64,000 nucleotides of DNA, taken from positions 3,631,126 to 3,695,125 of the forward strand of contig NZ_CP146275.1 of the NCBI RefSeq assembly GCF_037044555.1, written 5' to 3'. Position 1 is the stretch's first letter, and each line of letters opens with the position of its first letter. Positions 34,267 through 55,737 of this stretch are shown piece after piece. Source of the stretch: Pelagibacterium nitratireducens (GTDB lineage Bacteria; Pseudomonadota; Alphaproteobacteria; Rhizobiales; Devosiaceae). The position numbers and the translations under genes are program-made. Under the pieces are notes generated by a model. It was not told the origin of the DNA, searched no databases, and saw only the letters and a list, made by a program, of their open reading frames with translations.

Positions 34267-34535
34267 GATGGCCTCTTGGTCTGGTTTCGGATGCCCGGCA
34301 CTGGAGCCAACCTCATCTGTACCCAAGCTCTGACGGGCACTGTGGAGTCTAGACCCCTTGGCTGACCCTTGGCAATCAGAACCGGGCCGGCGCCATCACT
34401 TTCGAGTGGTGGCGGTGGATAACACCGAGCCCGCAGCCGACGTTCCCGGGGCAAGGAATTTTTCAATATATTCTTTGTTTTCAAAGGTTTGAAGATCGGT
34501 GCCGCTGGCATGAAAGCGGCAGGCCGGGAGCGTTC

Positions 34536-34564
34536 TTGTGTCGGGGTGCCCCGACCGGTATAGT
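34536..34564 (+). promoter_or_regulatory. Promoter of irr with palindrome in the spacer
   Basis: -35 TTGTGT (34536-34541) and -10 TATAGT (34559-34564) are 17 nt apart. GTCGGGG-TG-CCCCGAC (34540-34555) fills the spacer, an exact 7-bp inverted repeat. Upstream are a TTCAAA-GG-TTTGAA palindrome (34480-34493) and a hairpin TGCCGCT/AGCGGCA (34500-34521). The rest of the 34267-34603 gap has no gene. The regulator of these sites is unknown; Irr itself or RirA-type factors are candidates. Confidence 0.6.
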
Positions 34565-34603
34565 CCGGCCCAACAATGGCAATTCCAAACGCTAAAAGAG
34601 CCA

Positions 34604-35044
34604 ATGACTGCAACGATTAGGGCCGAGGCGCATCCCTCACGCGGCCCCTGCCTTATGGCCGTGCTGCGCATGGCCGGGCTGCGGCCCACCCGCCAGCGGC
34701 TCGCGCTGGCCGAGCTTCTGTTTTCCGGTCCGCACCGGCACGTCAACGCCGAGCAGCTCCATTCGGAGGCCGAGGGCGCGGGCGTTTCGGTTTCGCTGGC
34801 CACGATCTACAATTCGCTGCACCAGTTCCGCCAGGCCGGGCTGTTGCGCGAGATTTCAGTGGATGCGGCGCGGTCTTATTTCGATACCGACACAACCGAC
34901 CACCATCACTTCTTTATCGAGGATGAGCAGCGGATCGAGGACATTCCGTCCGATTCGATCAAGATCGCCGGCATTCCCGATGCGCCCGAGGGCATGAAAG
35001 TGACCCATGTGGATGTGATCGTTCGGGTCAAGCGCACCCAATAG
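34604..35044 (+). CDS. irr: Iron response regulator Irr (Fur superfamily)
   Basis: Irr is the haem-responsive global iron regulator of alphaproteobacteria. The 146-residue protein has the winged helix LRPTRQRLALAELLFSGPHRHVNAEQLHSEAEGAGVSVSLATIYNSLHQFRQAGLL. The Irr-specific TTDHHHFFIEDEQRIEDIPSDSIKI carries the three-His haem site. No N-terminal GCPW haem motif is seen, as in many Irr outside Bradyrhizobium. The ATG at 34604 follows AAGAG. A later Met (34653) is possible. It is followed convergently by the SH3-like gene. In relatives irr is adjacent to fabA, but here fabA lies 18.7 kb away. Confidence 0.93.
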   Translation: MTATIRAEAHPSRGPCLMAVLRMAGLRPTRQRLALAELLFSGPHRHVNAEQLHSEAEGAGVSVSLATIYNSLHQFRQAGLLREISVDAARSYFDTDTTDHHHFFIEDEQRIEDIPSDSIKIAGIPDAPEGMKVTHVDVIVRVKRTQ

Positions 35045-35091
35045 GGTCTTGTGGGCATGAGGTGGTTGGGCTCCGGCCCCCCACAATTGTC

Positions 35092-35667
35092 TCAGTCGAA
35101 GACTTCGCCTTCATAGACACCCCAGAGCGTCTGCTGGGCGACAAAACCCTGATATGAGCTCGTGCGGCCATCGAGGCCGGTGTGGTTGAGGCGGATTTCG
35201 CAGGCCGTGCCGGTACAGGTGCGCACCGAGACCAGCATTTTTGGAGAAAGCCAGGCGCGGACGGCCGATTCGGGGCTGGCGGATACGCGCAGGGCAATTG
35301 GACCCTCAGCCTGCCAGGGAGCGACAAGGGCCGTCCTGTCGCCGACAACCAGGTTCTGGTGAACCCAGCCCTCATCGCCCTCCACATCGCGAATACGGCG
35401 CCATGTGTCGAATTCGGCCGTGATTTCGACGGGAACCCCGGGGCGCAGAAAGGTAAAGGCAATATCATAATTGGTGCCCGGCCCGACGCGGACATTGGTG
35501 GGGGCGTTGCGCATGGAAACAAAGCGCGGGATGGGCAGGCCGCTGGAGGCGCCAACCTGCGCATTCTGGGCGAGGAGCGGGGTGACCGAAAACGCCGGGG
35601 CGCCAAGGGCCAGAGCCAACACCAAAAGCAGGCGAAGGGAGATGAAAGGGCGCACGATTTTACTCAT
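35092..35667 (-). CDS. Bacterial SH3-like domain periplasmic protein
   Basis: The 191-residue protein starts with a signal peptide (MSKIVRPFISLRLLLVLALALGAPAFS, cleavage near LAQ). The SH3 motif SMRNAPTNVRVGPGTNYDIAFTFLRPGVPVEITAEFDTWRRIRDVEGDEGWVHQNLV follows. A second SH3-like half is LRVSASPESAVRAWLSPKMLVSVRTCTGTACEIRL, with two Cys that could pair. SH3_3/SH3_4 proteins bind peptidoglycan peptides or other ligands. Adjacent to irr and divergent from the dehydrogenase, a neighbourhood also seen in other Hyphomicrobiales. The role is unknown. Confidence 0.88.
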   Translation of the reverse strand: MSKIVRPFISLRLLLVLALALGAPAFSVTPLLAQNAQVGASSGLPIPRFVSMRNAPTNVRVGPGTNYDIAFTFLRPGVPVEITAEFDTWRRIRDVEGDEGWVHQNLVVGDRTALVAPWQAEGPIALRVSASPESAVRAWLSPKMLVSVRTCTGTACEIRLNHTGLDGRTSSYQGFVAQQTLWGVYEGEVFD

Positions 35668-35811
35668 TGAACAGGCTGAACGCTGCGCCGGCGTGCGCGG
35701 CAGGACTTTGCAGCACGGCGCTTTTTCCCTAACAGTAATCGCGCGATCTTAATGCGCGCTGAAAATCATAGAGAACCGGTGCCGGAGCTAGTCTGCAATA
35801 ATGGTGATCGT

Positions 35812-36819
35812 GTGACCCGGGACCGGGCCAAAATCGTCGTTTCCCGCCGCCTGCCCGAGCCGGTCGAGGCGCGCATGGCGGCGCTGTTCGACGTCACATT
35901 CAACCAGAGCGACGCTCCACTCGATTCGACGGCTCTCCTGAGCGCGCTCAAGGGGGCCGAGGTTCTGGTCTCATCGATCACCGACCGCATCGATTCGGAT
36001 TTCATCGCCCAGATGCCTGCGGGCGTCAAACTGATCGCCCAGTTCGGCAACGGATTCGACAACATCAACATCGAAGCGGCCCATGCGGCGGGAGTAACCG
36101 TAACCAACACGCCCTCGGTTCTGACCGAGGACACCGCCGACATGGCGATGGCGCTGATGCTGTGCGTGCCGCGCCGGGTGACCGAGGGCGCTCGGGTGCT
36201 GCTCAAGGACGGAACATGGCCGGGCTGGTCGCCGACCTGGATGCTGGGCCGGCGGCTGGGCGGCAAGGCGCTGGGGATCGTGGGGCTGGGTCGGATCGGC
36301 ACCGCGGTGGCACGGCGGGCGAGGGCGTTCGGACTTTCCATCCATTATTGCGGGCGGACTCGAAAAGCCCCCCAGATCGAGGAATCGCTGAGGGCGACCT
36401 ATTGGGCCTCGCTCGACAAGATGGTCGAGCATGTCGATATCATTTCGCTGCACACGCCCCATACGCGCGATACCGTCGACATCCTTTCAGCGGACCGGAT
36501 GAAACGGCTCAAGCCCGGGGCGTTCGTGGTCAACATCTCCCGTCCCGAACTGGTGGACGAGGACGCGCTGGCCGATCTTGTGGCTTCAGGGCACCTTTCG
36601 GGTGCGGCGCTGGATGTTTTCGAGCACAAGAGGGGGGTGAACCCCAAGCTGCTCGAATTGGCGCGGGCCGACAAGGTGATGCTGACCCCGCATATGGGCT
36701 CGGCAACGCTCGAAGCGCGGATCGAGATGGGCGAGACGGTGATCGTCAATATCCGCACCTTTCTCGACGGCCACACGCCACCGCATCGCGTTTTGCCCGA
36801 GGGGCGGTCGCAGCTTTAA
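35812..36819 (+). CDS. D-2-hydroxyacid dehydrogenase (glyoxylate/hydroxypyruvate reductase type)
   Basis: This NAD(P)H-dependent enzyme probably reduces glyoxylate or hydroxypyruvate. The 335-residue product has the dinucleotide motif GIVGLGRIGTAVARRARAFG (about 150-170). The catalytic triad is Arg in NISRPELVDEDAL (about 240), Glu in VFEHKRGVNP and His in LTPHMGSATLEAR. The substrate-loop QFGNGFDNINIEAA is present. The frame could extend to ATG 35752, but the extra 20 residues have no family similarity. A GTG at 35812 is preferred, although its ribosome site is weak. Divergent from the SH3-like gene. The stop is 9 bases from the convergent GFA gene. Confidence 0.9.
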   Translation: MTRDRAKIVVSRRLPEPVEARMAALFDVTFNQSDAPLDSTALLSALKGAEVLVSSITDRIDSDFIAQMPAGVKLIAQFGNGFDNINIEAAHAAGVTVTNTPSVLTEDTADMAMALMLCVPRRVTEGARVLLKDGTWPGWSPTWMLGRRLGGKALGIVGLGRIGTAVARRARAFGLSIHYCGRTRKAPQIEESLRATYWASLDKMVEHVDIISLHTPHTRDTVDILSADRMKRLKPGAFVVNISRPELVDEDALADLVASGHLSGAALDVFEHKRGVNPKLLELARADKVMLTPHMGSATLEARIEMGETVIVNIRTFLDGHTPPHRVLPEGRSQL

Positions 36820-36827
36820 GTCCCGCC

Positions 36828-37253
36828 CTAGAGATAAGCTGTGACTGAAGGCGCCTGCATTTGCCGGTCGTGCAGGCCGTCCTCGTAGAGGATCGGGGTG
36901 GCATCGAGTTCTTCGGGCGTCACATCGTCAAGAGTCGAGACGTTGACGGCGTGGAACCAGCCGTTGAAGGGCTCGAATTCGAGATAGCCGCGCGAGAAAA
37001 CCTGCGTGCCGCATTTCGTGCAGAACATGTGATCAATGGTGCCCTGTGGCCATGAGGACGGGTCGGCAGCGTAGTGGCCGATACGGGCTTCACCCTCGGT
37101 CACGATGACCGAATCGCCATAGACGAAGGCTTTGCGATAGCCGGTCTTGAAGCAATAGGTACAATTGCATTTGCGGATTCCCTCATCGAGATCGATGGGG
37201 GCGGTAAAACGGATGGCACCGCAATGGCACGAGCCGGAATGGGTCTTTTTCAT
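36828..37253 (-). CDS. GFA-family protein (glutathione-dependent formaldehyde-activating type)
   Basis: The 141-residue protein has the zinc-binding pattern of the GFA fold: GSCHCGAIRF (CxC), KCNCTYCFK (CxCxxC), and FCTKCGTQVFSRG (CxxC). Length and motif spacing are typical. GFA was first described as adding glutathione to formaldehyde, but most members have no proven activity. The ATG overlaps the stop of the alpha/beta-hydrolase gene (ATGA), so it is translationally coupled to it and ends the transcript hydrolase-GFA with a DGPF gene upstream. A second GFA gene lies at 48656. Confidence 0.92.
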   Translation of the reverse strand: MKKTHSGSCHCGAIRFTAPIDLDEGIRKCNCTYCFKTGYRKAFVYGDSVIVTEGEARIGHYAADPSSWPQGTIDHMFCTKCGTQVFSRGYLEFEPFNGWFHAVNVSTLDDVTPEELDATPILYEDGLHDRQMQAPSVTAYL

Positions 37254-38050
37254 TTCGGTGCCTCGGTGAAAAAGGCGGTGATGACCGGTGCGATGGCTTC
37301 CGGTTGGGGGCCATGGCCCTGATCGGGCAGGGTTTTCCGCATTGCGTTGGGCAGCGCTGCGGCGGCGATGTCAGCGGCGGCGGCCATGAAATCGAAACTC
37401 TTGTCGCCATTGACGACGAGCACAGGCTGGGCGATGCCGCGCCAGCGGGCTTTCATGTCGGTCTTTGTGGCTTCGGCCAAGATGCGGAAATCGTGGGCGA
37501 TGGTGGTTCCGACAGCAGCGTAGGCCTCCCATTGCGGGCTCTGCTTGAACCCCTGGACGTGCTCGGGGGGCGTGCCAACCGAAAGCATGAAGTCCTCCAT
37601 GGCGCCGGCCCCGTCGCCGTGGGCCTTGAAGGCTTCCATCCGGGCAAGGTCGGCTAATGCCTCGTCTCTGGATTGCGCGGAGTTTATGGGCGGTTCGTAG
37701 CAGATGACCCGCGTGACCTGGCGCGGAAGCGACGCGGCGGCCTCTAGCGCCAGGACGGCACCCGAACTCATGCCAAACAGCATGGCAGTGCCGCCAAGCG
37801 CATCGATCAGAGCCTGGATGTCTTCGATCTCGCGGTTGACGGCGTAAGGCTCCGTGTTGCCGCTTTCCCCGCGCCCGCGGCGGTCGTAGAGCACGGACGT
37901 GAAACGCTGGGCGAGGAGATCGGCCAGCCTGGGGGTATCGGCATCGACGGCGCGATACTGGGTCGCGCCAGCGACAATGATCACGAGCGGGCCGGTGCCA
38001 CGGGTCTCATAGCCGATGGATGTGCCGTCGGCGGAGGTGACGTGGGGCAT
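37250..38050 (-). CDS. Alpha/beta-hydrolase
   Basis: The 266-residue protein shows GTGPLVIIVAGATQYRAVDADTPRLADLLAQ and YDRRGRGESGNTEPYAV, typical of the alpha/beta-hydrolase fold. The nucleophile elbow is GMSSGA (Ser at about 98). The C-terminal acid and His lie in VVNGDKSF and PDQGHGPQPEAI. No lid domain is apparent. Likely an esterase of unknown substrate. It is 2 bases downstream of the DGPF gene, and its stop overlaps the GFA start. The three-gene set (DGPF, hydrolase, GFA) is a compact transcript. Confidence 0.9.
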   Translation of the reverse strand: MPHVTSADGTSIGYETRGTGPLVIIVAGATQYRAVDADTPRLADLLAQRFTSVLYDRRGRGESGNTEPYAVNREIEDIQALIDALGGTAMLFGMSSGAVLALEAAASLPRQVTRVICYEPPINSAQSRDEALADLARMEAFKAHGDGAGAMEDFMLSVGTPPEHVQGFKQSPQWEAYAAVGTTIAHDFRILAEATKTDMKARWRGIAQPVLVVNGDKSFDFMAAAADIAAAALPNAMRKTLPDQGHGPQPEAIAPVITAFFTEAPK

Positions 38051-38052
38051 GG

Positions 38053-38478
38053 TCAGGCTCCCGACTTTTGCGCCGCGAGTTCGGCTTCAACCTTCTTGTG
38101 TTGCTCATAGCCTTCGCCTTCGGTGGCGAAATCTTCAAGCTCGTGCATCTGGCGGATTTCGAAACGGTCCTGGCCGTGGGCGATGGGGCATTTTGCGACC
38201 CAGTCGATGGCCTCCTGCAGCGAAGAACAGTTCCAGATCCAGAACCCGGCGATCACTTCCTTGATCTCGGTGAAGGGGCCGTCGGTGACGATGGGCTTTC
38301 CATCAGCGACCTGAACGCGAGCGCCTTTTGACGTCGACATCAGGCCCGCGCCATCGACCATGATACCGGCCTTGACCAGATCCTCGTTGTATTTGCCCAT
38401 TTCGAGCAGCAGGCCCTCCTGGGGCTCGACGTCGGCCTCGCTGTCGGCGGAGGCCTTTATCATCACCATGAAGCGCAT
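38053..38478 (-). CDS. YciI/DGPF-domain protein
   Basis: The 141-residue protein starts MRFMVMIKASADSEADVEPQEG. The domain signature MVDGAGLMSTSKGARVQVADGKPIVTDGPFTEIKEVIAGFWIWNCSSLQEAIDWVAKCP contains the DGPF motif that names the family. DGPF proteins have a YciI-like ferredoxin fold, and their catalytic role is unknown. They are often encoded next to ECF sigma factors, but none is here. GGGAGA precedes the ATG. It is the first gene of a DGPF-hydrolase-GFA transcript. The upstream frame reading through to 38547 has no support. Confidence 0.9.
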   Translation of the reverse strand: MRFMVMIKASADSEADVEPQEGLLLEMGKYNEDLVKAGIMVDGAGLMSTSKGARVQVADGKPIVTDGPFTEIKEVIAGFWIWNCSSLQEAIDWVAKCPIAHGQDRFEIRQMHELEDFATEGEGYEQHKKVEAELAAQKSGA

Positions 38479-38568
38479 TTTTCTCTCCCTTGGATGCGTG
38501 TCTGTTGCCAGGACGTTGCCCAACACGCCCTGCCGACATCTCATCACGATTTTTTTGCTCGCGACATG

Positions 38569-38600
38569 AAAAAACCCGGCGCTCCTTTCGGGGCGTCGGG
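38569..38600 (-). terminator. Terminator of pnp
   Basis: On the minus strand CCCGACGCCCCGAAAGGAGCGCCGGG folds with a short loop and one or two mismatches, then TTTTTT. It lies just past the pnp stop (38629) and prevents read-through into the DGPF unit. Confidence 0.85.
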
Positions 38601-38628
38601 CTGATCGCTTGGGAGAAACGCTGGCCGA

Positions 38629-40767
38629 TTATTCGGCGGCTTCGTCTTCCTTGGCCTTTTCCTTGCCGGTCTCCTGATCAATGACCTTCATGGAAAGGCG
38701 AACCTTGCCGCGCTCGTCGAAGCCTAAAAGCTTGACCCAGACCTTGTCGCCTTCCTTGACGACGTCGGTGGTCTTGCCCACGCGCTCTTCGGCGAGCTGG
38801 GAGATGTGCACGAGGCCGTCCTTTGCACCAAAGAAGTTCACGAACGCGCCGAAATCGGCGGTCTTGACCACGGTGCCCTGATAGACTTCGCCCACTTCGG
38901 GTTCGTCGGTGATCGACTTGATCCACTTGATGGCCGCATCGATCTGCTTGCCGTCCGAGGACGAGACCTTGACGGTGCCATCGTCTTCGATGTTGATCTT
39001 GGCGCCGGTCTTTTCGACGATCTCACGGATCACCTTGCCGCCGGTGCCGATCACTTCACGGATCTTGTCGGTCGGGATTTTGAGCGTTTCGATGCGCGGG
39101 GCGAACTCGCCCACTTCCGAACGGGCCGTGTCGATGGCCTTGGCCATTTCCTCGAGGATGTGCTTGCGCCCATCCTTGGCCTGGCCCAGAGCGATCTTCA
39201 TGATCTCTTCGGTGATGCCGGCAATCTTGATGTCCATCTGCAGGCTGGTCACGCCGTCATGGGTGCCCGCAACCTTGAAGTCCATGTCGCCGAGGTGATC
39301 TTCGTCACCCAGGATATCGGACAGCACGGCGAATTTTTCGCCTTCCAGGATCAGGCCCATGGCGATGCCGGCGACGGCTTTCTTCATGGGAACGCCCGCA
39401 TCCATCAGCGCCAGCGAGGTGCCGCACACGGTTGCCATGGAAGACGAACCGTTGGATTCGGTGATTTCGGAAACCACACGCAGGGTGTAGGGGAATTCCT
39501 CGGCCGAGGGGCGGACCGGGTTGATGGCGCGCCAGGCAAGCTTGCCGTGGCCGATTTCGCGGCGTCCGGGCGAACCCATGCGGCCAGCTTCACCGACCGA
39601 ATAGGGCGGGAAGTTGTAGTGGAGCAGGAAGTTCTGCTTGTAGGTACCTTCGAGCGAATCGATGAACTGCTCATCGTCCGCCGTACCCAGCGTCGCAACG
39701 ACCAGCGCCTGGGTTTCACCGCGAGTGAAGATGGCCGAACCGTGAGTGCGGGGCAGGACGCCGACTTCGGACACGATCGGGCGGACCGTTTCGAGGTCGC
39801 GACCGTCAATCCGGGTCTTGGTGTCGAGAATGTTCCAGCGCACGACCTTGGCCTGGAGCGACTTGAACACCGCGCCGACCTGTTCGGGGGTGTAGGCCGC
39901 TTCGCCCTCTTCGGGGATGAAGTGAGCCTTGACCTTGGCCTTGACCGCGTCGACGGCGTCGTAGCGCACCATCTTGTCGGTGTTCTTGTAGGCGTCACGC
40001 AGATCGCTTTCGATCAGCGCGAGCATTTCGGTTTCGAGCGCGCTCATATCGGCGGGTTCGAATTCGCGGGGCTCCTTGGCGGCCAGTTCGGCGAGCTTGA
40101 TGATCGCATCGATCACCTTCTGGCTCTGCTGGTGGCCAAACATGACGGCGCCGAGCATGACGTCCTCGGAGAGCTCCTTGGCTTCCGATTCCACCATCAG
40201 GACGGCGTCGGCAGTGCCAGCCATCACGAGGTCGAGCTTGGAATCATCGCGACGGTCGATGGGCAGGTTCAAAACATACTCGCCATCGACATAACCGACG
40301 CGGGCCGCGCCGATGGGGCCCATGAAGGGCACGCCCGAAATGGTGAGCGCCGCTGAAGCCGCGACCATGGCGAGCACGTCGGGCTGATTTTCCATGTCGT
40401 GCTGAAGCACGGTGATGATGACCTGGGTCTCGTTCTTGTACCCGGCGGGGAACAGGGGGCGGATCGGGCGATCGATCAGGCGCGAGGTCAGCGTCTCGGC
40501 CTCGGTGGGGCGGCCTTCACGCTTGAAATAGCCACCCGGGATCTTGCCGGCGGCAAAATACTTTTCCTGGTAGTTGACGGTCAGCGGGAAGAAATCGATG
40601 CCGGCCTTTGGCGTCTTGGCGGAAACGACGGTGGCCAGAACCACGGTTTCGCCCAGGGTGGCGAGCACGGCGCCATCGGCCTGACGCGCGATCTTGCCGG
40701 TTTCGAGCGTGAGGGGTTGTCCGCCCCAGTCGAGCTCGACTTTGTGGTGGTCGAAATTGAGTGTCAT
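38629..40767 (-). CDS. pnp: Polyribonucleotide nucleotidyltransferase (PNPase)
   Basis: PNPase degrades RNA 3'-to-5' by phosphorolysis and is part of the degradosome. The 712-residue protein starts [16 protein letters not shown]. The first RNase PH domain ([33 protein letters not shown]) is followed by an alpha domain and the catalytic second RNase PH domain ([22 protein letters not shown], and [13 protein letters not shown] with the metal-binding Asp). The KH ([23 protein letters not shown]) and S1 ([32 protein letters not shown]) domains follow. Normal length. rpsO lies 272 bases upstream, the usual pair. A strong terminator follows. Confidence 0.98.
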
Positions 40768-41039
40768 GAGACATTCCTTCTTGTGCGAGGAGCCGCCGAC
40801 GCGCTTCCAAGCGGCATCGGGCGGATCGCGTCGCAGGTGGCGCCAGAGGCGTCCCTCAAGTTCCGGAACATGGACAAGACGGCGAGAGGCTCAAGCTTCC
40901 GTTGAGAAGTGACCGGAGCCTCCGGCGATCCTGCCATGCCCCCAAAGGGCGCTTCCGGCAGTTTGCGCTTGCCGGCCCCATTGCCGGCAGGCGATACGAC
41001 AAGGGGTCAGCAAATGGCGCCGACCCCCCGTCAATTGCT

Positions 41040-41309
41040 CTAGCGGCGGATGCCGAGCCGTTCGATCAGGCTCTGGTACCGCGCTTGGTCGCCGCGCTTG
41101 ACATAGTCGAGAAGCGAACGGCGGGTCGCAACCATTTTCAGAAGACCGCGGCGCGAGTGATTGTCCTTGCCGTGGCTCTTGAAATGTTCGGTGAGGTTGG
41201 TGATCCGCTCGGTCAGGATGGCGACCTGAACTTCCGGAGACCCGGTATCGCCAGCCTTCGTTGCATAATCCTTGATCAGCTCAGCCTTGCGCTCAGCAGT
41301 AATCGACAT
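41040..41309 (-). CDS. rpsO: 30S ribosomal protein S15
   Basis: S15 binds the 16S rRNA three-way junction and is essential for platform assembly. The 89-residue protein has the full family sequence from [36 protein letters not shown] through [40 protein letters not shown] to LIERLGIRR. The AAAGGGATTTT before the ATG is the ribosome site. It precedes pnp with a 272-base gap, and the histidine kinase gene ends 155 bases upstream. The usual upstream neighbour truB is displaced by that kinase. Confidence 0.98.
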
Positions 41310-41463
41310 CGTAAAATCCCTTTCAAAACAAGGAGTTGCGTGACGCCAATACCGGGATGCCGTCCAGGAATGGCCATTTTATGCACAAAGGGAAACCCTT
41401 TTGCTGGCGCCCATATAGGGTATCGGGGGGCAAATGAGAAGTTTTTTCTCGTTTACGGGCCGA

Positions 41464-43197: not shown

Positions 43198-43284
43198 TGT
43201 CGAGTGGCCGATCCTTATGGACCCGCAAACCTTTAGCCTGTCACAGAGAGAGGGTAAAGAGCCCCCGCGCGGGCCCCGATCCCC

Positions 43285-44196: not shown

Positions 44197-44210
44197 TGCA
44201 CGTCCTTTAT

Positions 44211-44618: not shown

Positions 44619-44649
44619 CCGCGCGAGATAGGGTGCAATTGGCTGCGCG

Positions 44650-45528: not shown

Positions 45529-46637
45529 TCGGCTCTGACCTCCGGATCGGGTTCGGTTGCAAGTGATCTGGCCCGCTGGGCGTCTGCCTCGCCCTCCCCG
45601 GTCAGCTGCCGCAGGGCCCAGATGGCCATGCCACGCACCAGCGGGCTGTCATGGGCGATCAGCCGCTCGATGGCGGCAAGATACGCCGTGTCGCCCGAAT
45701 TGCCCGCCGCAACGAGGCAATTGCGCAAAAAACGGTCCGAGCCGAGGCGCTTGACGGGTGTCTGGGCGAAAAAATCGCGGAATGCTGCATCGCTCAGAGC
45801 GAGCATGTCGCTCAAGCCGGCATTGCGGATGGATTGGCGGGCCGAGAGTTTGGCGTCGCGGGTGGCGCTGGCGAACTTGTTCCATGGGCAGACCGCGAGA
45901 CAATCGTCGCAGCCGAAGACGCGATTGCCCATGGGTTTGCGGAATTCGACAGGGATCTGGCCCTTATGCTCGACCGAATAATAGGCAAGGCATTTGCGGG
46001 CATCGAGGCGGAATGGGGCGGGGAAGGCATCTGTGGGGCAGATGTCGAGGCATTTGGTGCAGGTGCCGCATTTTTCCTCTGCCGGTGTGCTGGCGGGCAG
46101 ATCGGCCGAAGTGAAAATCGCCCCCAGAAACAGCCACGAGCCCGCATCGCGCGAGAGCAACACCGTGTGCTTGCCCTGCCAACCCAAGCCCGCGGCTTCG
46201 GCGAGGGGCTTTTCCATCACCGGTGCGGTATCGACGAACACTTTGACCTCGGCGCCGGTGCGGCGGGCGAGAAGGCCTGCGAGATCCTTGAGGCGACCCT
46301 TGATGACGTCATGGTAGTCGCGCATCTGGGCGTAGACCGAGACGTTGGCGAGGGAAGTGTCGGCGAGACGGTCGAGCGGGTTTTCCTCCGGGCCGTAATT
46401 GGCGCCCACCATGATAACCGATTTCACATCGGGCCAGAGTGCGGCAGGGGATTTGCGGCGCTCCTCGGTGTCGGCCATCCAGTCCATATCGGCGTGCCAG
46501 CCGCTTTGTAGCGCCGATTGCAGCTTTTGCGGCAGGTCGGGGCGGGCATCGGCAGGCGCGATGCCGAAACCGGCAAAGCCCAGTTCGGCAGCGCGGGCGC
46601 GCAGTTCGGCAACTATGCTGTCGCCCTTAGCACTCAA
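45516..46637 (-). CDS. queG: Epoxyqueuosine reductase
   Basis: QueG reduces epoxyqueuosine to queuosine in tRNA with a cobalamin and two 4Fe-4S clusters. The 373-residue product has the two ferredoxin motifs CGTCTKCLDICP and CDDCLAVCPWN, the N-terminal YGPEENPLDRLA segment, and the HEAT-like C-terminus. No Met lies near the expected start. A TTG at 46637 overlaps the GST stop as TTGA and starts the family-like LSAKGDSIVAELRARAAELGF, so it is chosen. It is coupled with GST upstream and the SDR downstream (13-base overlap). Confidence 0.93.
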   Translation of the reverse strand: MSAKGDSIVAELRARAAELGFAGFGIAPADARPDLPQKLQSALQSGWHADMDWMADTEERRKSPAALWPDVKSVIMVGANYGPEENPLDRLADTSLANVSVYAQMRDYHDVIKGRLKDLAGLLARRTGAEVKVFVDTAPVMEKPLAEAAGLGWQGKHTVLLSRDAGSWLFLGAIFTSADLPASTPAEEKCGTCTKCLDICPTDAFPAPFRLDARKCLAYYSVEHKGQIPVEFRKPMGNRVFGCDDCLAVCPWNKFASATRDAKLSARQSIRNAGLSDMLALSDAAFRDFFAQTPVKRLGSDRFLRNCLVAAGNSGDTAYLAAIERLIAHDSPLVRGMAIWALRQLTGEGEADAQRARSLATEPDPEVRAEWSH

Positions 46638-47314
46638 AAATCGAGGTCCGCGTAGCTCGTCGAGGCCGGCATGCCCACGATGCGGTCGCCCAGCAGTGGA
46701 CGGAAAGCGGGGCGCGATTTGATGCGGGCGTACCAATCCTTGATTTCGCCGGCCTTTTCCCAGGCGATGTCGCCCATATAATCGAGCACGGAAATATGGG
46801 CGGCGAGTGCAAAATCGGCCAGAGTCAGCGTATCGCCGGCCAGCCAGCGGCGAGTGGCCAGAACCCAGGAAAAATAGGCAAGGTGTTCGGTGAGGTTGGC
46901 CTTGGCGATGCGGATGACCGAAGGCTCGGGAGCGCCAGAGCGCAGATCGCGCTTTATGAGCTTTTCCTCGAGAAGATAGGCGGTCACTTCAGGGCCGAGC
47001 TTTAACAGAACCCATTCGAGCAGGCGCCAGACTTCGATCTTTTCGCCTGCATTTTCGGGCAACAGGGCCTCGATATGGCCTTCGGGGCCGAAATTGTCCT
47101 CGATATGGGCGATGGTGGCCAGAATGCCGACAATAGGCGGAAACGGCTCGTCGAGCATGACGGGGACGGATGCCGCGGGGTTGATTTCAAGAAAATCGGG
47201 ATCGCGCCGCCAGGGCGCCACGTCGACCAGACCGACATCGACACCGTATTCGGCAAGCATGAGGCGGATGAGCCGGCTTGAGGGATCGAGCTTATGATGC
47301 AAAAGCTGGGGCAT
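46634..47314 (-). CDS. Glutathione S-transferase-like protein
   Basis: The 226-residue protein starts MPQLLHHKLDPSSRLIRLMLAEYGVDVGLVDVAPWRRDPDFLEINPAASVPVMLDEPFPPIVG, the thioredoxin-like GST N-domain with the cis-Pro loop (SVPVML). The alpha-helical C-domain has RRWLAGDTLTLADFALAAHISVLDYMG, which contains the LADF N-capping motif. The Ser of DPSSRL is the likely catalytic residue. The start at 47314 avoids 19 unrelated residues. It is the first gene of the GST-queG-SDR transcript. Confidence 0.93.
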   Translation of the reverse strand: MPQLLHHKLDPSSRLIRLMLAEYGVDVGLVDVAPWRRDPDFLEINPAASVPVMLDEPFPPIVGILATIAHIEDNFGPEGHIEALLPENAGEKIEVWRLLEWVLLKLGPEVTAYLLEEKLIKRDLRSGAPEPSVIRIAKANLTEHLAYFSWVLATRRWLAGDTLTLADFALAAHISVLDYMGDIAWEKAGEIKDWYARIKSRPAFRPLLGDRIVGMPASTSYADLDF

Positions 47315-47504
47315 GGACCAATCATAAAAATGTTGCGGCACCCGATCCAGGTGGAAGCCGGAGGGCCGCAAACCTCAACACGCGATTAGGCCGCGTAAAC
47401 TGAGGGCCAATCAAGGTGTTTTTGTGCCCAAGCCGCCAAGCCTGCGCGCATTTTTCCTTAACCGGTCAACGATCGGTTAACCGCAACCGGGTCCAGCGAG
47501 CCAA

Positions 47505-48485
47505 TCAGCCATTGACCAGCGGATTGATGTGCCGGTCGAATTCGCCATGCTTGCGGAAGCGCCACATATAGGTGGGGAGGATGGCGTCCATTGTGGTGGG
47601 CGCGATGCCGAACGCTTCAAGGGTTCGTTTCTGCTTTATCGCTTCGGGCGAGACGACATTGTCGATGCCGAGCTGGATGACCTGATCAGGGGTCAGGAGC
47701 GGCCTGGGCAGGAGCGAAAGAACGCTGGCGACCGGCTTTGCGACAAATTCGGGCAAGGGCAGGACAACCCGCTTGCGGCGGGTCTGTTCGAGCACGCGCT
47801 CGATCACCTGTTCCATGGTGACGATTTCAGGGCCGCCCAGCTCATAGACCTTGCCGGTCTTGACGGCGCCCTGGGAAGCGAGAGCGATGGCCTCGGCGAC
47901 GTCGGCTACGTAAACGGGCTGGAATTTTGTATCACGCCCGATCAGCGGCATAATCGGGGACATGCGGGCGATAAAGCCGAACAGGTTGAAAAACCCGTCC
48001 TCGGCCCCGAACACCAGGGACGGCCGAATGACAATGGCCTCGGGGAAAGCCTTGAAAACTTCGTCCTCGCCCAGCGCCTTGGCGCGCTGATAGGCCGAGG
48101 GCGATTGGGTATCGGCCCCTATGGCCGACATGTGAATGAGGGTGGGCACGCCGGCGTCGCGGGCCGCTTCCGCAACGGCCTTGGCGCCCTGGGTCTGGAC
48201 GGCGCGGAAGCGCTGCTTGCCCTTTTCGAAAAGAATGCCGACCAGATTGATGACCACGTCGGACCCGCGCACGGCGGAAGCGACCGATTCGGGATAGCGC
48301 AGATTGGCCTGGACCGGCTGGATCTGACCGGGGAAACCGAACATGCGCACATGGCCGGCCAGATCGGGGCGCCTGACGGCCACCCTTACCGAATACCCAC
48401 GCCGCGCCAGATCCTGGGTGAGCTGGGAGCCGATAAAGCCCGAGCCACCGAAGATCGTCGCGATTTTTCTTGTCTTTTCGGTCAT
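47505..48485 (-). CDS. NDUFA9-like complex I-associated NAD(P)-binding protein
   Basis: The 326-residue atypical SDR starts MTEKTRKIATIFGGSGFIGSQLTQDLARRGYSVRVAVRRPDLAGHVRMFGFPGQIQPVQANLRY. VINLVGILFEKGKQRFRAVQTQGAKAVAEAARDAGV and YQRAKALGEDEVFKAFPEAIVIRPSLVFGAEDGFFNLF match the NDUFA9/YbjT-like group. In alphaproteobacteria the family is linked to respiratory complex I and is usually annotated as NAD(P)H-binding. Its neighbours give no further hint. It is monocistronic. An ATG 69 bases upstream would add unrelated residues. Confidence 0.9.
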   Translation of the reverse strand: MTEKTRKIATIFGGSGFIGSQLTQDLARRGYSVRVAVRRPDLAGHVRMFGFPGQIQPVQANLRYPESVASAVRGSDVVINLVGILFEKGKQRFRAVQTQGAKAVAEAARDAGVPTLIHMSAIGADTQSPSAYQRAKALGEDEVFKAFPEAIVIRPSLVFGAEDGFFNLFGFIARMSPIMPLIGRDTKFQPVYVADVAEAIALASQGAVKTGKVYELGGPEIVTMEQVIERVLEQTRRKRVVLPLPEFVAKPVASVLSLLPRPLLTPDQVIQLGIDNVVSPEAIKQKRTLEAFGIAPTTMDAILPTYMWRFRKHGEFDRHINPLVNG

Positions 48486-48655
48486 GAGAAGGATCCCGCC
48501 GCCAAAACGAACGCCTGTGAAGATGGCCCGTTCTAGCCCCGGTGGCTTGCCCATTGCAATCGGTTTGCGACGCGATACGGCTGCATGGGCAAAGGGGATT
48601 GACTCTTCAATCCATATGTTCTTGATTTGTTCTTATATTTTCGAGGAGAGTAACA

Positions 48656-49024
48656 GTGGGTGAACAAACCGAAATTGCTGTTTATGAAGGCAGTTGCCAG
48701 TGCGGTGCCGTCCGCTTTACCGCCCGCACACGGCTCGAGGCGCCGTTTCAATGCAATTGCTCGCGCTGCCGGAGGCTGAACGCGGTCATGCATTCGGTGC
48801 GGGGGGATGATTTCACGCTTTTGAGTGGCAGCGAGGCGCTGAAAATCTACAGGTTCAATTCCCACACCATCGCGCATCAGTTCTGCACCCAATGCGGTAT
48901 CCAGCCTTTTGCATCTGGAAGCGATCGGGAGGGCAACACGATCCATGTCATAAACGTGCACTGTCTCGATGAGCCGCGTTATGACAGGAACGCCGTAAGC
49001 CACTTCAACGGGTCCGATTTCTGA
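48656..49024 (+). CDS. GFA-family protein
   Basis: The 122-residue zinc-binding protein shows EGSCQCGAVRF (CxC), QCNCSRCRR (CxCxxC), and QFCTQCGIQPF (CxxC), the GFA fold pattern. It differs from the GFA protein at 36828-37253 in both length and C-terminal half (SDREGNTIHVINVHCLDEPRYD here). A GTG start at 48656 follows GAGGAGAG at good spacing, stronger than any alternative. It is monocistronic, divergent from the NDUFA9-like gene, and precedes tRNA-Leu by 89 bases. Confidence 0.9.
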   Translation: MGEQTEIAVYEGSCQCGAVRFTARTRLEAPFQCNCSRCRRLNAVMHSVRGDDFTLLSGSEALKIYRFNSHTIAHQFCTQCGIQPFASGSDREGNTIHVINVHCLDEPRYDRNAVSHFNGSDF

Positions 49025-49072
49025 GCCGCGGCCCGCCGCGCATAAATTGCTGTCGGGCCGGTGCAAGCTGCA

Positions 49073-49099
49073 TTGACAAAGCCCAAAGGGCACTCTAAA
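49073..49099 (+). promoter_or_regulatory. Candidate promoter of tRNA-Leu
   Basis: -35 TTGACA (49073-49078) and a -10 TCTAAA (49094-49099) lie just upstream of the tRNA. The 15-nt spacer is shorter than the ideal; an alternative -10 one base later (CTAAAG) gives 16. The palindrome GCCC-AAA-GGGC sits in the spacer. Confidence 0.5.
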
Positions 49100-49112
49100 G
49101 CGTGCCCCCGTT

Positions 49113-49199
49113 GCCCAGATGGCGGAATTGGTAGACGCGCTAGCTTCAGGTGCTAGTTCCCGAAAGGGAGTGGAAGTTCGAGTCTTCTTCTGGGCACCA
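49113..49199 (+). tRNA. tRNA-Leu (anticodon CAG)
   Basis: An 87-nt type II tRNA. The acceptor arm GCCCAGA pairs with TCTGGGC, and the D-arm contains GGTAGACGCGC. The anticodon stem GCTAG/CTAGT-like region frames a loop TTCAGGT with anticodon CAG. The long variable arm is TTCCCGAAAGGGAGT, the T-arm GAAGTTCGAGTCTTC, and CCA is encoded. It decodes CUG. A run of eight Ts follows 3 bases past CCA (49203-49210). Confidence 0.96.
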
Positions 49200-49382
49200 T
49201 CGTTTTTTTTCGGCCTTGCCGAACTTTCCAGAAATATCGGGTTTTATCGGCCGTCCCCTGTTGCCAGGGGAGGCGGGGCGCGATTGGTCGCAGCCCTGCC
49301 TTGGGCTGGAAGGTCTAGGCAAAACGCTGCGGGGTGTGGCATCTAGGGAAACCTTTGCCTCTCCCCGGAGTTATGAGACGAC

Positions 49383-50000
49383 ATGAGCGTTCGACTGCAC
49401 AAGGGCGATCTGCCCGACCTTTCCCGCTACACCGGACGGCAGGTGGCGATCGATACCGAGACGATGGGGCTCAACCCGATGCGCGACCGGCTGTGCGTCG
49501 TGCAGCTTTCGCCCGGTGACGGCACTGCCGATGTGGTCCAGATCCTGCCCGGGCAGACCGAGGCACCCAACCTTGCGGCGCTTTTGGCCGATGAGACCAA
49601 GACAAAACTGTTTCATTTCGCCCGGTTCGACATGGCGGCGCTTTTTGCCGCGTTCGGGGTAATGACCACGCCGGTCTATTGCACCAAGATCGCCTCGAAA
49701 CTCGTGCGCACCTATACCGACCGGCATGGGCTCAAAGACCTCTCGCGCGAGCTTTTGGGCGTCGACATGAGCAAGCAGCAGCAATCGTCGGACTGGGGGG
49801 CGGAAACGCTGAGCCAGGCCCAGCTCGATTATGCCGCATCGGATGTGCTCTATCTGCACGATCTGCGCCGCCACCTGGACCGGATGCTGGCACGAGAGGG
49901 CCGGGTGGACATGGCGAAGGCCTGTTTCGAATTCCTGCCCACGCGCGCCCAACTCGATCTCGCCGGCTGGCCCGAGACCGATATCTTTGCCCACAGCTAG
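49383..50000 (+). CDS. RNase D-like 3'-5' exonuclease
   Basis: The 205-residue protein has the DEDD exonuclease signatures: VAIDTETMGL (ExoI), FHFARFDMAAL (ExoII) and YAASDVLYLHDLRRHL (ExoIII, DEDDy type). It lacks the C-terminal HRDC domains of full-length RNase D, so it is the short alphaproteobacterial form that trims stable RNA 3' ends. It begins the exonuclease-lptC-lptA-lptB string. The lptC ATG follows its stop by 3 bases, so they are co-transcribed. The common name rnd is used loosely for this short type. Confidence 0.93.
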   Translation: MSVRLHKGDLPDLSRYTGRQVAIDTETMGLNPMRDRLCVVQLSPGDGTADVVQILPGQTEAPNLAALLADETKTKLFHFARFDMAALFAAFGVMTTPVYCTKIASKLVRTYTDRHGLKDLSRELLGVDMSKQQQSSDWGAETLSQAQLDYAASDVLYLHDLRRHLDRMLAREGRVDMAKACFEFLPTRAQLDLAGWPETDIFAHS

Positions 50001-50003
50001 CCA

Positions 50004-50678
50004 ATGATCGCGCCCACCGCCAGCGTCCGACACGAGACCTATCTGCGGTTTGCCCGGCACAACCGGCGGATCGCGGTGTTGCGCTGGGTGGTGCCTGTGG
50101 CGGGCATCGTTGTTCTGTCGGTGCCCGCGCTCCAGGTTGCCGCCAGCATGGTCGGCGATATCGTGCCGATAGAGGGCATAAGGCTGGAAAACGACACGCT
50201 GGTGATCGAGGGACCGCGTTTTGAAGGCCGCACGGCAACCGGCTCGAACTATACGCTGGAAGCGGCTCGGGCGGAGACGCGGGTGGGCAATCTCGATACG
50301 GCCGACCTTTACGAGCTTACCGTCGATATTTCCGACGATGACGGCTATTCGGCCCATATCGAATTTGCCTCGGCCGAATGGACGATGAGCAGCGAATACC
50401 TGACTTCCAACGAGGATGTCACGGTTTCCGATTCCACCGGTGCGCAAGGTGTTCTGGCTGGGGTCGAAGTGGACTGGCCGGCCCAGATCATCACGTCGGA
50501 CGGCCCTGTGCGTTTCGCCTTCGATAGCGGCGCGCACCTTTATGCCGATACGATGGAACACGATCTGGACGCTGCGCGCTGGCAGTTTAGCGGCGTCAAT
50601 CTCGATATGATGCCCCAACCCGATGCCGGAGAGGTGCGGGATCCTTTTGCTGCGGAGACGGACAATGACGCGCTTTAG
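50004..50678 (+). CDS. lptC: LPS export bitopic protein LptC
   Basis: LptC spans the inner membrane once and passes lipopolysaccharide from LptB2FG to LptA. The 224-residue protein has a single N-terminal helix (about 23-47, LRWVVPVAGIVVLSVPALQVAAS) after a basic start. The periplasmic beta-jellyroll follows (LVIEGPRFEGRTATGSNYTLEAARAETR, then DVTVSDSTGAQGVLAGVEVDW). Family similarity is diffuse, as usual, and the position before lptA and lptB supports it. The lptA start lies 14 bases inside its end. Confidence 0.9.
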   Translation: MIAPTASVRHETYLRFARHNRRIAVLRWVVPVAGIVVLSVPALQVAASMVGDIVPIEGIRLENDTLVIEGPRFEGRTATGSNYTLEAARAETRVGNLDTADLYELTVDISDDDGYSAHIEFASAEWTMSSEYLTSNEDVTVSDSTGAQGVLAGVEVDWPAQIITSDGPVRFAFDSGAHLYADTMEHDLDAARWQFSGVNLDMMPQPDAGEVRDPFAAETDNDAL

Positions 50679-51177
50679 CCTGGCGATCGCATGTTTCGCC
50701 CTTCTTGCCGGACCGGCATTGGCCCAGAGCACGGCCAGCGATCCCGCCGGGTTCGGCGGCCTGGCCGGCGAGGCGGACGAACAGGTCAACGTGACGGCCG
50801 ACAACCTCGACGTGCTCGAAAACGAAAGTACGGCGCTGTTTACCGGCAATGTGGTGATTACCCAGGGCACGATGGAGCTCGAAGCGCCCCAGGTCGAGAC
50901 CGTTTACGGCGAAGGCGGGCCTTCGGACCTTGAAAGCTTTTCGGCCTCGGGTGGGCGGGTGAAAATGGCGTTCGACGACCAGACCGTGGAAGCCGATACC
51001 GCCGATTACGATTTCGGCGACCGGGTGCTGGTGTTCACCGGCTCGGTGGTGGTGGTCAATGCCAGCGGCACCGTCAATGCCGATCGGCTGGTGATCGACA
51101 CGCGGGCCGGCACCTCCTCGTTCAGCTCCGCGGGTGGTGGCGGGCGCGTCACCAGCACCTTTACGCCGGGGGGCTGA
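50665..51177 (+). CDS. lptA: LPS transport periplasmic protein LptA
   Basis: LptA bridges the periplasm and carries LPS from LptC to LptD. The 170-residue protein starts with a signal peptide (MTRFSLAIACFALLAGPALAQ). The OstA-type repeats VNVTADNLDVLENESTALFTGNVVITQGTMELEAPQVETVYG and VLVFTGSVVVVNASGTVNADRLVIDTRAG form the jellyroll. It overlaps lptC by 14 bases, and lptB starts on its last stop base (TGATG). Both overlaps point to translational coupling in lptCAB. Confidence 0.95.
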   Translation: MTRFSLAIACFALLAGPALAQSTASDPAGFGGLAGEADEQVNVTADNLDVLENESTALFTGNVVITQGTMELEAPQVETVYGEGGPSDLESFSASGGRVKMAFDDQTVEADTADYDFGDRVLVFTGSVVVVNASGTVNADRLVIDTRAGTSSFSSAGGGGRVTSTFTPGG

Positions 51178-51917
51178 TGGGCGGCATCGACCAGACCGGC
51201 TGGCTCGTCGCCCACGGTCTTGCCAAGAGTTTTGGAAGGCGCGCCGTGGTGCGCGACGTCTCGATTGCGGTGCGGCGCGGTGAGGCGGTGGGTCTGCTCG
51301 GACCCAACGGGGCGGGCAAGACGACGGTTTTTACCATGATCATGGGACTGGTTCGGCCCGATGGCGGCGAGGTGCTACTCGACGGGCTTTCGATCACCCA
51401 TCTGCCGCTCTATCAGCGCGGACGGCTGGGCATCGGCTATCTGCCGCAAGAGGCCTCGATCTTTCGCGGGCTGAGCGTGAAGGACAATGTGCTGGCCGTG
51501 CTCGAAGGGCATATCAAAAACAAGAAAGAGCGCCATGCACGGCTCGACGAATTGCTCGACGAGTTTTCGGTTTCCCACCTGCGCGATGCCGATGCGCTGG
51601 CGCTGTCGGGGGGTGAGCGGCGGCGTGTGGAAATTGCCCGCGCGCTGGCGGCGGACCCCAAATTCATGCTGCTCGACGAACCGTTTGCCGGGGTCGATCC
51701 GATTGCGGTGGCCGATATCCAGGGGCTGGTGCGCCAGCTCACCCAGCGCGGCATCGGAGTTCTAATCACCGACCATCAGGTGCGTGAAACTTTCGGGTTG
51801 GTGGACAGGGCCTATCTGATCCACGGCGGCAAGGTAATGATCCAGGGCCGGCCCGAGACCATCATGGCCGACCCCGACGCGCGGCGGGTTTATCTGGGCG
51901 AAAGCTTCAAGCTCTAG
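51177..51917 (+). CDS. lptB: LPS export ABC transporter ATP-binding protein LptB
   Basis: LptB powers LptF/LptG extraction of LPS from the inner membrane. The 246-residue ATPase has Walker A GPNGAGKTTVF (about 42-52), the Q-loop LPQEASIF, signature LSGGERRRVEIARALA, Walker B FMLLDEPFAGVDPIAV and the H-loop ITDHQVRET, all matching LptB. The start shares a base with the lptA stop. rpoN follows after 188 bases with its own sigma-54-type promoter, but read-through from lptB is possible. Confidence 0.97.
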   Translation: MGGIDQTGWLVAHGLAKSFGRRAVVRDVSIAVRRGEAVGLLGPNGAGKTTVFTMIMGLVRPDGGEVLLDGLSITHLPLYQRGRLGIGYLPQEASIFRGLSVKDNVLAVLEGHIKNKKERHARLDELLDEFSVSHLRDADALALSGGERRRVEIARALAADPKFMLLDEPFAGVDPIAVADIQGLVRQLTQRGIGVLITDHQVRETFGLVDRAYLIHGGKVMIQGRPETIMADPDARRVYLGESFKL

Positions 51918-51931
51918 CCTTTGGCACCACT

Positions 51932-51947
51932 TGGCACGGAAATTGTA
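51932..51947 (+). promoter_or_regulatory. Sigma-54 type promoter upstream of rpoN
   Basis: The sequence TGGCACGGAAATTGTA fits the -24/-12 consensus TGGCACG-N4-TTGCA with one mismatch (T for C in the -12 GC), and the spacing between the GG and the GT is the required 10 bp. It lies 159 bases upstream of the rpoN ATG, just past the lptB stop. It would let RpoN control its own gene, which occurs in some rhizobia. Confidence 0.7.
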
Positions 51948-52105
51948 TGGCATGCCTTGAAGGGCTGTCACAAAGCCGCTAGGTTCGCCCAGTCGACGTC
52001 CTTGGTTGTCGCGTGTCCGAACCGAACAACCGTTTCCACTTATTCTGGACACGCTCCGGCGTGGGACGCTTCGATTTGGGGGAATTGAGTGGGAGCTCTT
52101 TAGGC

Positions 52106-53605
52106 ATGGCGCTGTCGCCACGGCTGGATGTCCGGCAAACCCAGACATTGACGCTGACGCCGCAACTGATGGCGTCGATCCGGCTGTTGCAGCTGAGCCA
52201 TCTTGAGCTGAGCGCTTTCGTCGATGCCGAGCTGATGCGCAATCCGCTGCTCGAAAGCACCGATGCGCCCGATGGCGATACGCCCATGGAGCGCGAGCGG
52301 GCCGAGGAGATCGACCCCTATCGCGACGTTGTCGACTATTCCGATCATCTGGGCAGCGCAACGAGTATCGCGAACAGTTTCGATACCGAGGCTTCCAACC
52401 TTTTTCCCGAGCAGTCAGGGCAGGATTCGCTGAGCCAGTCGAGCTCGTGGCCCGAAGGCAAGGGCGGCGCGTTGGGCGGCGAGGCGCCCGATATCGACCA
52501 ATATGTGTCTGCCCAGATCTCGCTGGCCGACCATCTGGCCGATCAGGTCAACCTGATCGTAAACGACCCCGCCGAACGGCTGATCGCCCGCAGCCTCGTC
52601 GATAACCTCGACGAGCGCGGGTATCTGATGGCCGAGATCGACCAGATCGCCGAGCAGCTCGGTGCCGATGCCGGAACCGTCGAGGCCGTGCTGGGCAAGG
52701 TGCAGGGGTGCGAGCCGCTTGGGGTTTTTGCGCGCTCGCTTTCGGAATGCCTGTCTATCCAGCTGGCCGAAAAGGACAGGCTGGATCCCATGATGGCCGG
52801 GCTGCTGGCCCATCTCGATCTGGTGGCCAGTCACGATCTGGCGCTGCTGGGCAAAAAGATCGGGGCGGACCGCGAGGATATTTTCGACATGCTGGCCGAA
52901 TTGCGCGAACTCGATCCACGTCCAGGCCGGGCGTTCGATTTTTCGCCGGTGCAATCGGTGGTGCCCGATGTGTTCGTCAAACGCGGCAATGACGGCGGAT
53001 GGCAGGTCGAGCTCAATTCCGACGTGCTGCCGCGGGTTCTGGTCAACCGGGTCTATTATGCCTCGATTTCCAAAAAAACCCGCGACCCGGAGGAAAAGAC
53101 CTTCCTTGTCGATTGTCTCAATACGGCGAACTGGCTTACCAAGAGCCTCGACCAGCGTGCCCAGACGATCCTAAAAGTGGCCACCGAAATCGTCAAACAG
53201 CAGGACGGGTTCCTGCGGCACGGCGTTTCCCATCTGCGGCCGATGACGCTCAAGGCCGTTGCCACCGAGATCGAGATGCACGAATCGACGGTGTCGCGGG
53301 TGACGGCGAACAAATATATCGCGACGCCGCGCGGGCTGTTCGAGATGAAATATTTCTTCACGACCGCGCTCAATTCCTCCTCGGGCGGCGACGATCATTC
53401 GGCCGAGGCGGTGCGCCACCGTATCCGCCAGCTGATCGAGGGAGAAAAGCCCGAGGCGATCCTGTCGGACGACACGATTGCCGAAATGCTCAAGCGCGAA
53501 CAGGGAATCGATGTGGCCCGCCGGACCGTTGCCAAGTACCGCGAAGGCATGGGCATTGCCTCCTCGGTGATCCGGCGCCGCCAGAAGAAGGCACAGATGG
53601 CGTAG
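52106..53605 (+). CDS. rpoN: RNA polymerase sigma-54 factor
   Basis: RpoN directs polymerase to -24/-12 promoters that need AAA+ activators, mainly nitrogen and motility genes. The 499-residue protein starts MALSPRLDVRQTQTLTLTPQLMASIRLLQLSHLEL, the Gln-rich region I. Region II is acidic and variable. The core-binding and DNA-binding regions follow, including the C-terminal RpoN box ARRTVAKYRE. The frame extends 31 codons upstream without family similarity, so this ATG is preferred. The usual downstream genes hpf and ptsN are absent, and fabA follows instead. Confidence 0.97.
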   Translation: MALSPRLDVRQTQTLTLTPQLMASIRLLQLSHLELSAFVDAELMRNPLLESTDAPDGDTPMERERAEEIDPYRDVVDYSDHLGSATSIANSFDTEASNLFPEQSGQDSLSQSSSWPEGKGGALGGEAPDIDQYVSAQISLADHLADQVNLIVNDPAERLIARSLVDNLDERGYLMAEIDQIAEQLGADAGTVEAVLGKVQGCEPLGVFARSLSECLSIQLAEKDRLDPMMAGLLAHLDLVASHDLALLGKKIGADREDIFDMLAELRELDPRPGRAFDFSPVQSVVPDVFVKRGNDGGWQVELNSDVLPRVLVNRVYYASISKKTRDPEEKTFLVDCLNTANWLTKSLDQRAQTILKVATEIVKQQDGFLRHGVSHLRPMTLKAVATEIEMHESTVSRVTANKYIATPRGLFEMKYFFTTALNSSSGGDDHSAEAVRHRIRQLIEGEKPEAILSDDTIAEMLKREQGIDVARRTVAKYREGMGIASSVIRRRQKKAQMA

Positions 53606-53794
53606 AGCCTGTCCCAGCCCGATTGGATCAGGCTTTGGCTTTGTTTTGTCGTGTGACCGAACCGGAAAAGCCTGCAACGTTTCGCCTCGCGGCCCTCCGG
53701 GTCCGATCACACTCAAGGTGCATCGGGCAAATGGTCTATTGACCCTCCTAGCGATTGCCCTCTACACAGTTTTTTCCAGATTTGCGGGGAGTCC

Positions 53795-55584: not shown

Positions 55585-55588
55585 TTCG

Positions 55589-55701: not shown

Positions 55702-55737
55702 GCGATGGCAATTGCCCGATTGTAGAGCGGCAGCCCG

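Follow-up and report, generated by a model that had tools for sequence, protein, structure and literature searches.

Evidence for a single reciprocal inversion that parted rpoN from hpf-ptsN and irr from fabA on the stem of Pelagibacterium

The neighbourhood of rpoN (sigma-54), which includes lptABC and the genes of the ribosome hibernation factor HPF and of PTS-Ntr, is described as conserved (PMC3162934). Compared with this neighbourhood, Pelagibacterium retains lptC-lptA-lptB-rpoN, but has fabA-fabB, not hpf-ptsN, after rpoN. In this paper, we have analysed a stretch of 64,000 nucleotides of the Pelagibacterium nitratireducens genome (contig NZ_CP146275.1, positions 3,631,126 to 3,695,125; hereafter the window), in which rpoN is followed by fabA-fabB, and irr, the gene of a Fur-family regulator, stands beside hpf. 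We conclude that one reciprocal inversion, probably of about 19 kb, on the stem of Pelagibacterium, made both new gene pairs, and we assign this reading a probability of about 0.87.

The event is a real instance of a well-known kind, the lineage-specific local inversion. Textbook bacterial local inversions are likewise characterized by a reversed block, collinear flanks, reciprocal intergenic junctions and fixation in a clade; the event in Pelagibacterium, on the other hand, breaks the divergent irr-fabA pair, which is kept in nearly all the loci examined across the order, and no repeats are left between the two gaps of the window. The corresponding locus of Devosia nitrariae (G115, NZ_BSNS01000003.1) shares both flanks and 24 genes with the window, but its inner block has the opposite orientation and is devoid of the stretch that runs from SH3 and a 2-hydroxyacid dehydrogenase gene (DH) through pnp to truB. 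No publication on this rearrangement was found in literature searches. As a marker in gene order, the inversion sets Pelagibacterium cleanly apart; it is also a natural experiment, as rpoN has been parted from hpf-ptsN and irr from fabA, neighbours that are widely conserved, while the promoter-like elements stayed where they were. It offers a test of the regulatory relevance of conserved neighbourhoods, and is otherwise ordinary genome evolution.

Gene order in Pelagibacterium and its relatives

From left to right, the window carries the genes 30.1, 30.9, ptsN and hpf on the minus strand, then irr on the plus strand, followed by SH3, DH, GFA, abhydrolase, YCII, pnp, rpsO, HWE kinase, truB, the gene at 44.65 kb (44.6), queG, GST, epimerase and, again on the plus strand, rnd-lptC-lptA-lptB-rpoN; the right flank consists of fabA-fabB (plus strand), thiF and other genes. 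The block of about 19.0 kb measures 19,002 bp from the irr start to the rpoN stop. Pfam matches confirm ptsN, hpf, irr, lptA, lptB, rpoN, fabA and fabB; no Pfam family matched lptC, and rnd matched with an exonuclease domain only. The names rpsO, lptC and rnd are presumptive, being based on position. Matches and coordinates together bear out the initial annotation, in which hpf-ptsN on the minus strand was placed beside irr, and rpoN on the plus strand before fabA-fabB, and both gaps named there as breakpoints are indeed intergenic. The principal features are as follows:

33057..33524, minus strand: ptsN (PTS EIIA-Ntr), Pfam PF00359; in the same place in Devosia nitrariae, within the collinear flank left of the inversion
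33691 to about 34266, minus strand: hpf (ribosome hibernation factor), Pfam PF02482 and PF16321; start codon read from the sequence; its former upstream neighbour rpoN is lost
34267..34603, no strand: left breakpoint gap, the new divergent spacer between hpf and irr
34604..35044, plus strand: irr (Fur-family regulator), Pfam PF01475; left end of the inverted block
34604..53605, no strand: inverted block irr-SH3-DH-..-pnp-rpsO-HWE kinase-truB-44.6-queG-GST-epimerase-rnd-lptC-lptA-lptB-rpoN, defined by gene-order comparison
52013..53605, plus strand: rpoN (sigma-54), Pfam PF04552, PF04963 and PF00309; right end of the inverted block
53606..53794, no strand: right breakpoint gap between rpoN and fabA, with a dispersed repeat in an insertion that this species acquired later
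53795..54310, plus strand: fabA, Pfam PF07977; within the collinear flank right of the inversion
54358..55584, plus strand: fabB, Pfam PF00109 and PF02801

In the outgroups read, these genes form two loci with local variation, one with the order truB..pnp..DH-SH3-irr and then fabA-fabB-thiF..62.9, and the other with 44.6-queG-GST-epimerase-rnd-lptC-lptA-lptB-rpoN and then hpf-ptsN-30.9-30.1. In Pelagibacterium the halves of the two loci are swapped, so that irr joins hpf and rpoN joins fabA, and long flanks have been carried along. Devosia nitrariae has the order without the flip, within some 16 kb, namely 30.1-30.9-ptsN-hpf-rpoN-lptB-lptA-lptC-rnd-epimerase-GST-queG-44.6-..-irr and then fabA-fabB-thiF..62.9. 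It differs from the window by two breakpoints over 24 shared genes, a count from which the 11 of the 35 named window genes without a match in Devosia nitrariae were left out. When 300 possible single inversions were scored, only that of irr to rpoN gave zero breakpoints against this genome, the next best giving three; the block is reversed in both order and strand, and the flanks are collinear. Flipping the segment between the two gaps, as the initial annotation had suggested, thus restores the order of a relative, and the single-inversion reading is supported.

The family sample comprised 121 genomes, 13 of them from Pelagibacterium, including P. luteolum (G050), P. lentulum (G041), P. sediminicola (G035), P. 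montanilacus (G053), P. xiamenense (G016) and the metagenome-assembled genome UBA3584 (G065). All were searched with RpoN, Hpf, Irr and FabA, and neighbour pairs were tallied at distances of up to 3 kb. In 13/13 genomes of the genus rpoN is followed by fabA, an arrangement found in 0/108 of the others, where the two genes lie far apart on one contig (57), on different contigs (47), or one of them is missing (4). The divergent hpf-irr pair has the same distribution (13/13 and 0/108; outside the genus, 57 genomes have the genes on one contig but far apart, 48 have them on different contigs, and in 3 one is missing). Conversely, the old pairs prevail outside the genus, as the initial annotation had stated of relatives: rpoN is followed by hpf in 90/108 genomes, the exceptions being nine with the genes further apart on one contig (one by 3.4 kb), six with different contigs and three with a gene missing, and irr is divergent from fabA in 104/108 (different contigs in three, missing in one). 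Since both new pairs occur throughout the genus and nowhere else in the family sample, the adjacencies go beyond chance. New and old junctions, two of each, are exactly reciprocal, and neither new pair is split in any of the 13 members.

Age of the inversion and later rearrangements

A tree was built from nine proteins encoded at these loci in 33 genomes, some of which have proteins missing; its fabA row for G081 and G083 represents a second, more distant copy. The genus is monophyletic with a support of 100. The window order is present in P. xiamenense, which branches near the base of the genus (support 58-95), as well as across the crown, and the basal place of P. montanilacus has a support of 66 only. 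The inversion is older than the crown of the genus, and is not private to the P. nitratireducens genome. The initial annotation had called for an alignment with relatives; the inverted block expected from it appears against Devosia nitrariae, but the close relatives within the genus keep the window order, which places the event on the stem.

Relative to the window, five genomes (G065, G056, G046, G059 and G016) have zero breakpoints, and P. lentulum is exactly one inversion apart, from truB to 62.9. More happened in two other members: in G023 an inversion of SH3 to fabB lowers the breakpoints from five to three, and in P. montanilacus one of epimerase to fabB lowers them from six to four. As a result of the later inversion, G023 has irr and fabA once more at most 3 kb apart, with fabB between them. 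P. luteolum and P. sediminicola show three breakpoints in the count, though their gene-order strings are collinear, and we take these as best-hit noise in the small accessory genes gfa, abh and 48.6. G029 and G062, in which the block spans contig ends, were left out of the count. As a separate observation, the convergent gap between fabB and thiF (window 55585-55737; loci L073, L074 and L084) has apparently served as an inversion endpoint twice in Pelagibacterium, in G023 and in P. montanilacus.

Breakpoint spacers and promoter-like elements

Three promoter-like elements were recognized in the two gaps:

34349..34422, minus strand: hpf element GATTGCC-N-CTAGACTC with the genus-specific TTATCCACC upstream, from spacer sequence comparison
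34535..34564, plus strand: irr element CTTGT-N-TATAGT, with the same kind in irr-fabA spacers outside the genus
53739..53765, plus strand: fabA element TTGACC-N-CTCTAC, of a kind found in irr-fabA spacers outside the genus

The TTGACC word of fabA occurs in 13/13 genus spacers and 12/13 outside spacers, where shuffled sequences gave means of 0.4 and 0.6 (maximum 3 and 4, respectively), and is located 55-60 bases before fabA in 12 genus spacers and 164 bases before it in P. lentulum, the nearest copy outside the genus lying at 42-80 bases. The full form of the element is found in 13/13 genus and 7/13 outside spacers. For hpf, a loose CTAGACTC-type word is present in 13/13 genus and 10/13 outside spacers (in one of the latter far upstream), and ATTGC-N-CTA in 11/13 and 8/13, respectively; the irr type CTTGT-N-TATA is found in 9/13 and 8/13. 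The samples cannot be counted as independent, since the spacers of G000/G062 and those of G065/G056 are near-identical. As judged from these sequences, fabA, hpf and irr have seemingly each retained a promoter-like element of their own. Because such elements are found in spacers of the genus and of the outside genomes alike, the chromosome was probably cut between promoters, and the right cut probably lies between the rpoN stop and TTGACC, since the stretch between them amounts to 25 to 134 bases.

We propose that, in the stem lineage of Pelagibacterium, the chromosome was broken at two places, one located after the rpoN stop codon and before the hpf promoter, the other in the interval separating the promoters of irr and fabA, and that the ends were rejoined in reverse. 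This would convert rpoN followed by hpf-ptsN, and irr divergent from fabA-fabB, into rpoN followed by fabA-fabB, and ptsN-hpf divergent from irr. As each gene would have kept its own promoter-like element, the change was probably near neutral for expression and could thus have become fixed. We infer the molecular route, as no repeats survive between the gaps of the window. A dispersed intergenic repeat does occur within an insertion in the rpoN/fabA gap (window 53639-53711), with 21 matches in its own genome including itself, most of about 30 bases. It was rejected as a cause of the inversion: G065, G056 and G046 have 86-base spacer strings that do not contain it, and so it arrived later.

Upstream of hpf, a TTATCCACC-like word precedes GATTGCC by 44-46 bases (start to start) in 10/13 Pelagibacterium genomes; in G029 the word is present, with no exact GATTGCC on that strand. 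A loose form of TTATCCACC is found in 11/13 hpf-irr spacers and 2/13 rpoN-fabA spacers of the genus, and in none of the 26 spacers examined outside it (0/13 rpoN-hpf and 0/13 irr-fabA); the shuffled means are 0.2-0.3. The full module has one match each in 8/13 genus genomes, always in the hpf-irr spacer. The TTATCCACC-like site is one base from a DnaA box. We consider it unlikely that the inversion gave rise to a new control region shared by hpf and irr, in which the TTATCCACC-like site would bring hibernation under a genus-specific input, with rpoN and the following fabA-fabB partly co-transcribed; if this were true, the inversion would be not only neutral reshuffling.

Extent of the block and alternative histories

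The block contains a third genus-wide junction, between truB and the 44.65 kb gene:

44197..44649, no strand: stretch between truB and the 44.65 kb gene, which holds part of the predicted open reading frame 44211-44804 (minus strand); the neighbourhood is genus-wide and new
44650-45528: the 44.65 kb gene (44.6)

These two genes lie within 3 kb of each other in 13/13 genomes of the genus. Of the 69 outside genomes for which both were entered, none shows this proximity, and three have the two genes at most 8 kb apart in a different arrangement. The initial annotation had given the inversion as about 19.4 kb, and irr to rpoN now span 19,002 bp, but owing to the third junction the size at the time of the event can only be inferred: the inversion could have measured about 19 kb, as we prefer, if the truB/44.6 junction is older, and more if it is younger. 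A possible, if clearly less likely, variant is that one inversion with the same two cuts reversed a longer block of tens to hundreds of kb, which was later shortened or reshuffled in such a way that truB came near the 44.65 kb gene. It would suit the distance between the two loci, 27-464 kb in 50/51 scorable outside genomes, and the truB/44.6 neighbourhood, which matches the two new pairs in its genus specificity; yet it needs further events on the stem, and Devosia nitrariae, the genome nearest to the precursor, although without the pnp-truB stretch, shows that a distance of 16 kb between the loci, in the orientation required, does occur. Orientation was scored in the 51 outside genomes that have both old pairs on one contig (57/108 were not scorable). 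One inversion would give both new pairs in 21/51, with rpoN and irr facing each other in 14 and hpf and fabA in 7; all the former 14, at distances of 16-119 kb, belong to the genus coded g16, which includes Devosia nitrariae.

Several points speak against a single inversion of about 19 kb. In the other 30/51 genomes the loci are oriented otherwise (rpoN and fabA facing each other in 22, hpf and irr in 8), and one inversion would be insufficient. None of the 69 outside genomes with both truB and 44.6 represents a precursor in which these two are close and the old pairs are still intact, and the block may therefore have had another size. Other lineages of the family have lost the old neighbourhood of rpoN and hpf as well, so its loss alone is not special, and the nine-protein tree does not settle the sister group of the genus. 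The promoter-like patterns were picked after viewing the spacers, and are sequence resemblances, not mapped starts. Moreover, the two gaps of the window are without a shared inverted word of at least 8 bases; among the best two gap matches of at least 9 bases per genome in the 13 members, one is inverted, in P. lentulum. Nor does the window show the break in GC skew that the initial annotation had looked for at the gaps, the values being 0.060 to the left, 0.064 inside and 0.068 to the right, a signature that an old event could have lost. The inverted repeats that would mark the ends of an invertible (phase-variable) element were likewise not found between the two gaps of the window, and the sole conspecific genome (G062), whose block is split over two contigs, has the same junctions.

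Two separate moves, of fabA-fabB to behind rpoN and of hpf-ptsN to beside irr, are very unlikely, even though the region is often reshuffled in the family and rpoN and hpf have been parted in several other lineages: long flanks moved with each pair (hpf-ptsN-30.9-30.1 and fabA-fabB-thiF-..-62.9), all four ends match reciprocally, and none of the 121 family genomes has one new pair without the other, many of the outside genomes having the genes on different contigs. The co-occurrence of the reciprocal pairs in every member of the genus agrees with the single event that the initial annotation had favoured for its economy.

The state beyond the family was read from an order-wide Irr search, which matched 60/61 genomes. 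Among the best 30 of the matched loci, irr is divergent from fabA within 0.7 kb in 2/2 family loci and 25/27 loci of other families; of the remaining two, one has the genes divergent 0.9 kb apart, and the other has no fabA in the available sequence. In the window's own irr locus fabA is not beside irr. For rpoN, 80 named loci were found among the matches listed, in 58 of which hpf follows, and in six fabA (five named Pelagibacterium and the UBA3584 genome); the other 16 have neither gene next to rpoN within the limits, five of them with ptsN close behind. Because of the 25/27 and 58/80 loci, rpoN followed by hpf and irr divergent from fabA is the ancestral order. An ancestral window order with derived relatives, as one might suppose from the presence of both new pairs in all 13 genus members, is hardly credible against these counts. 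An assembly artefact is practically negligible, the same junctions being found in 13 genomes, including the single-contig assemblies G056 and G059.

Some further arrangements were observed outside Pelagibacterium. Within g16, rpoN and hpf are parted in several ways (L194, L195, L220, L221, L276, L277, L197, L204 and L198-L203): rpoN is followed by HWE kinase-rpsO-pnp in G081, G083 and G097, hpf stands beside DH-SH3 in G113 and G119, and hpf lies apart from rpoN in G052, G071 and G086. The genomes G081, G083 and G097 also have a second copy of fabA, more distant in sequence, which lies on the strand opposite to hpf and some 2 kb away from it (L194, L220 and L276). The ArsR, AHSA1 and DUF1801 genes found near truB in some outgroups were considered as a marker of the ancestral order and dropped, being accessory genes. 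In three small-genome relatives (G009, G025 and G031; L264-L275), hpf stands divergent from GST-queG-44.6, with irr and fabA on separate contigs; these genomes may represent a second lineage that breaks both old pairs.

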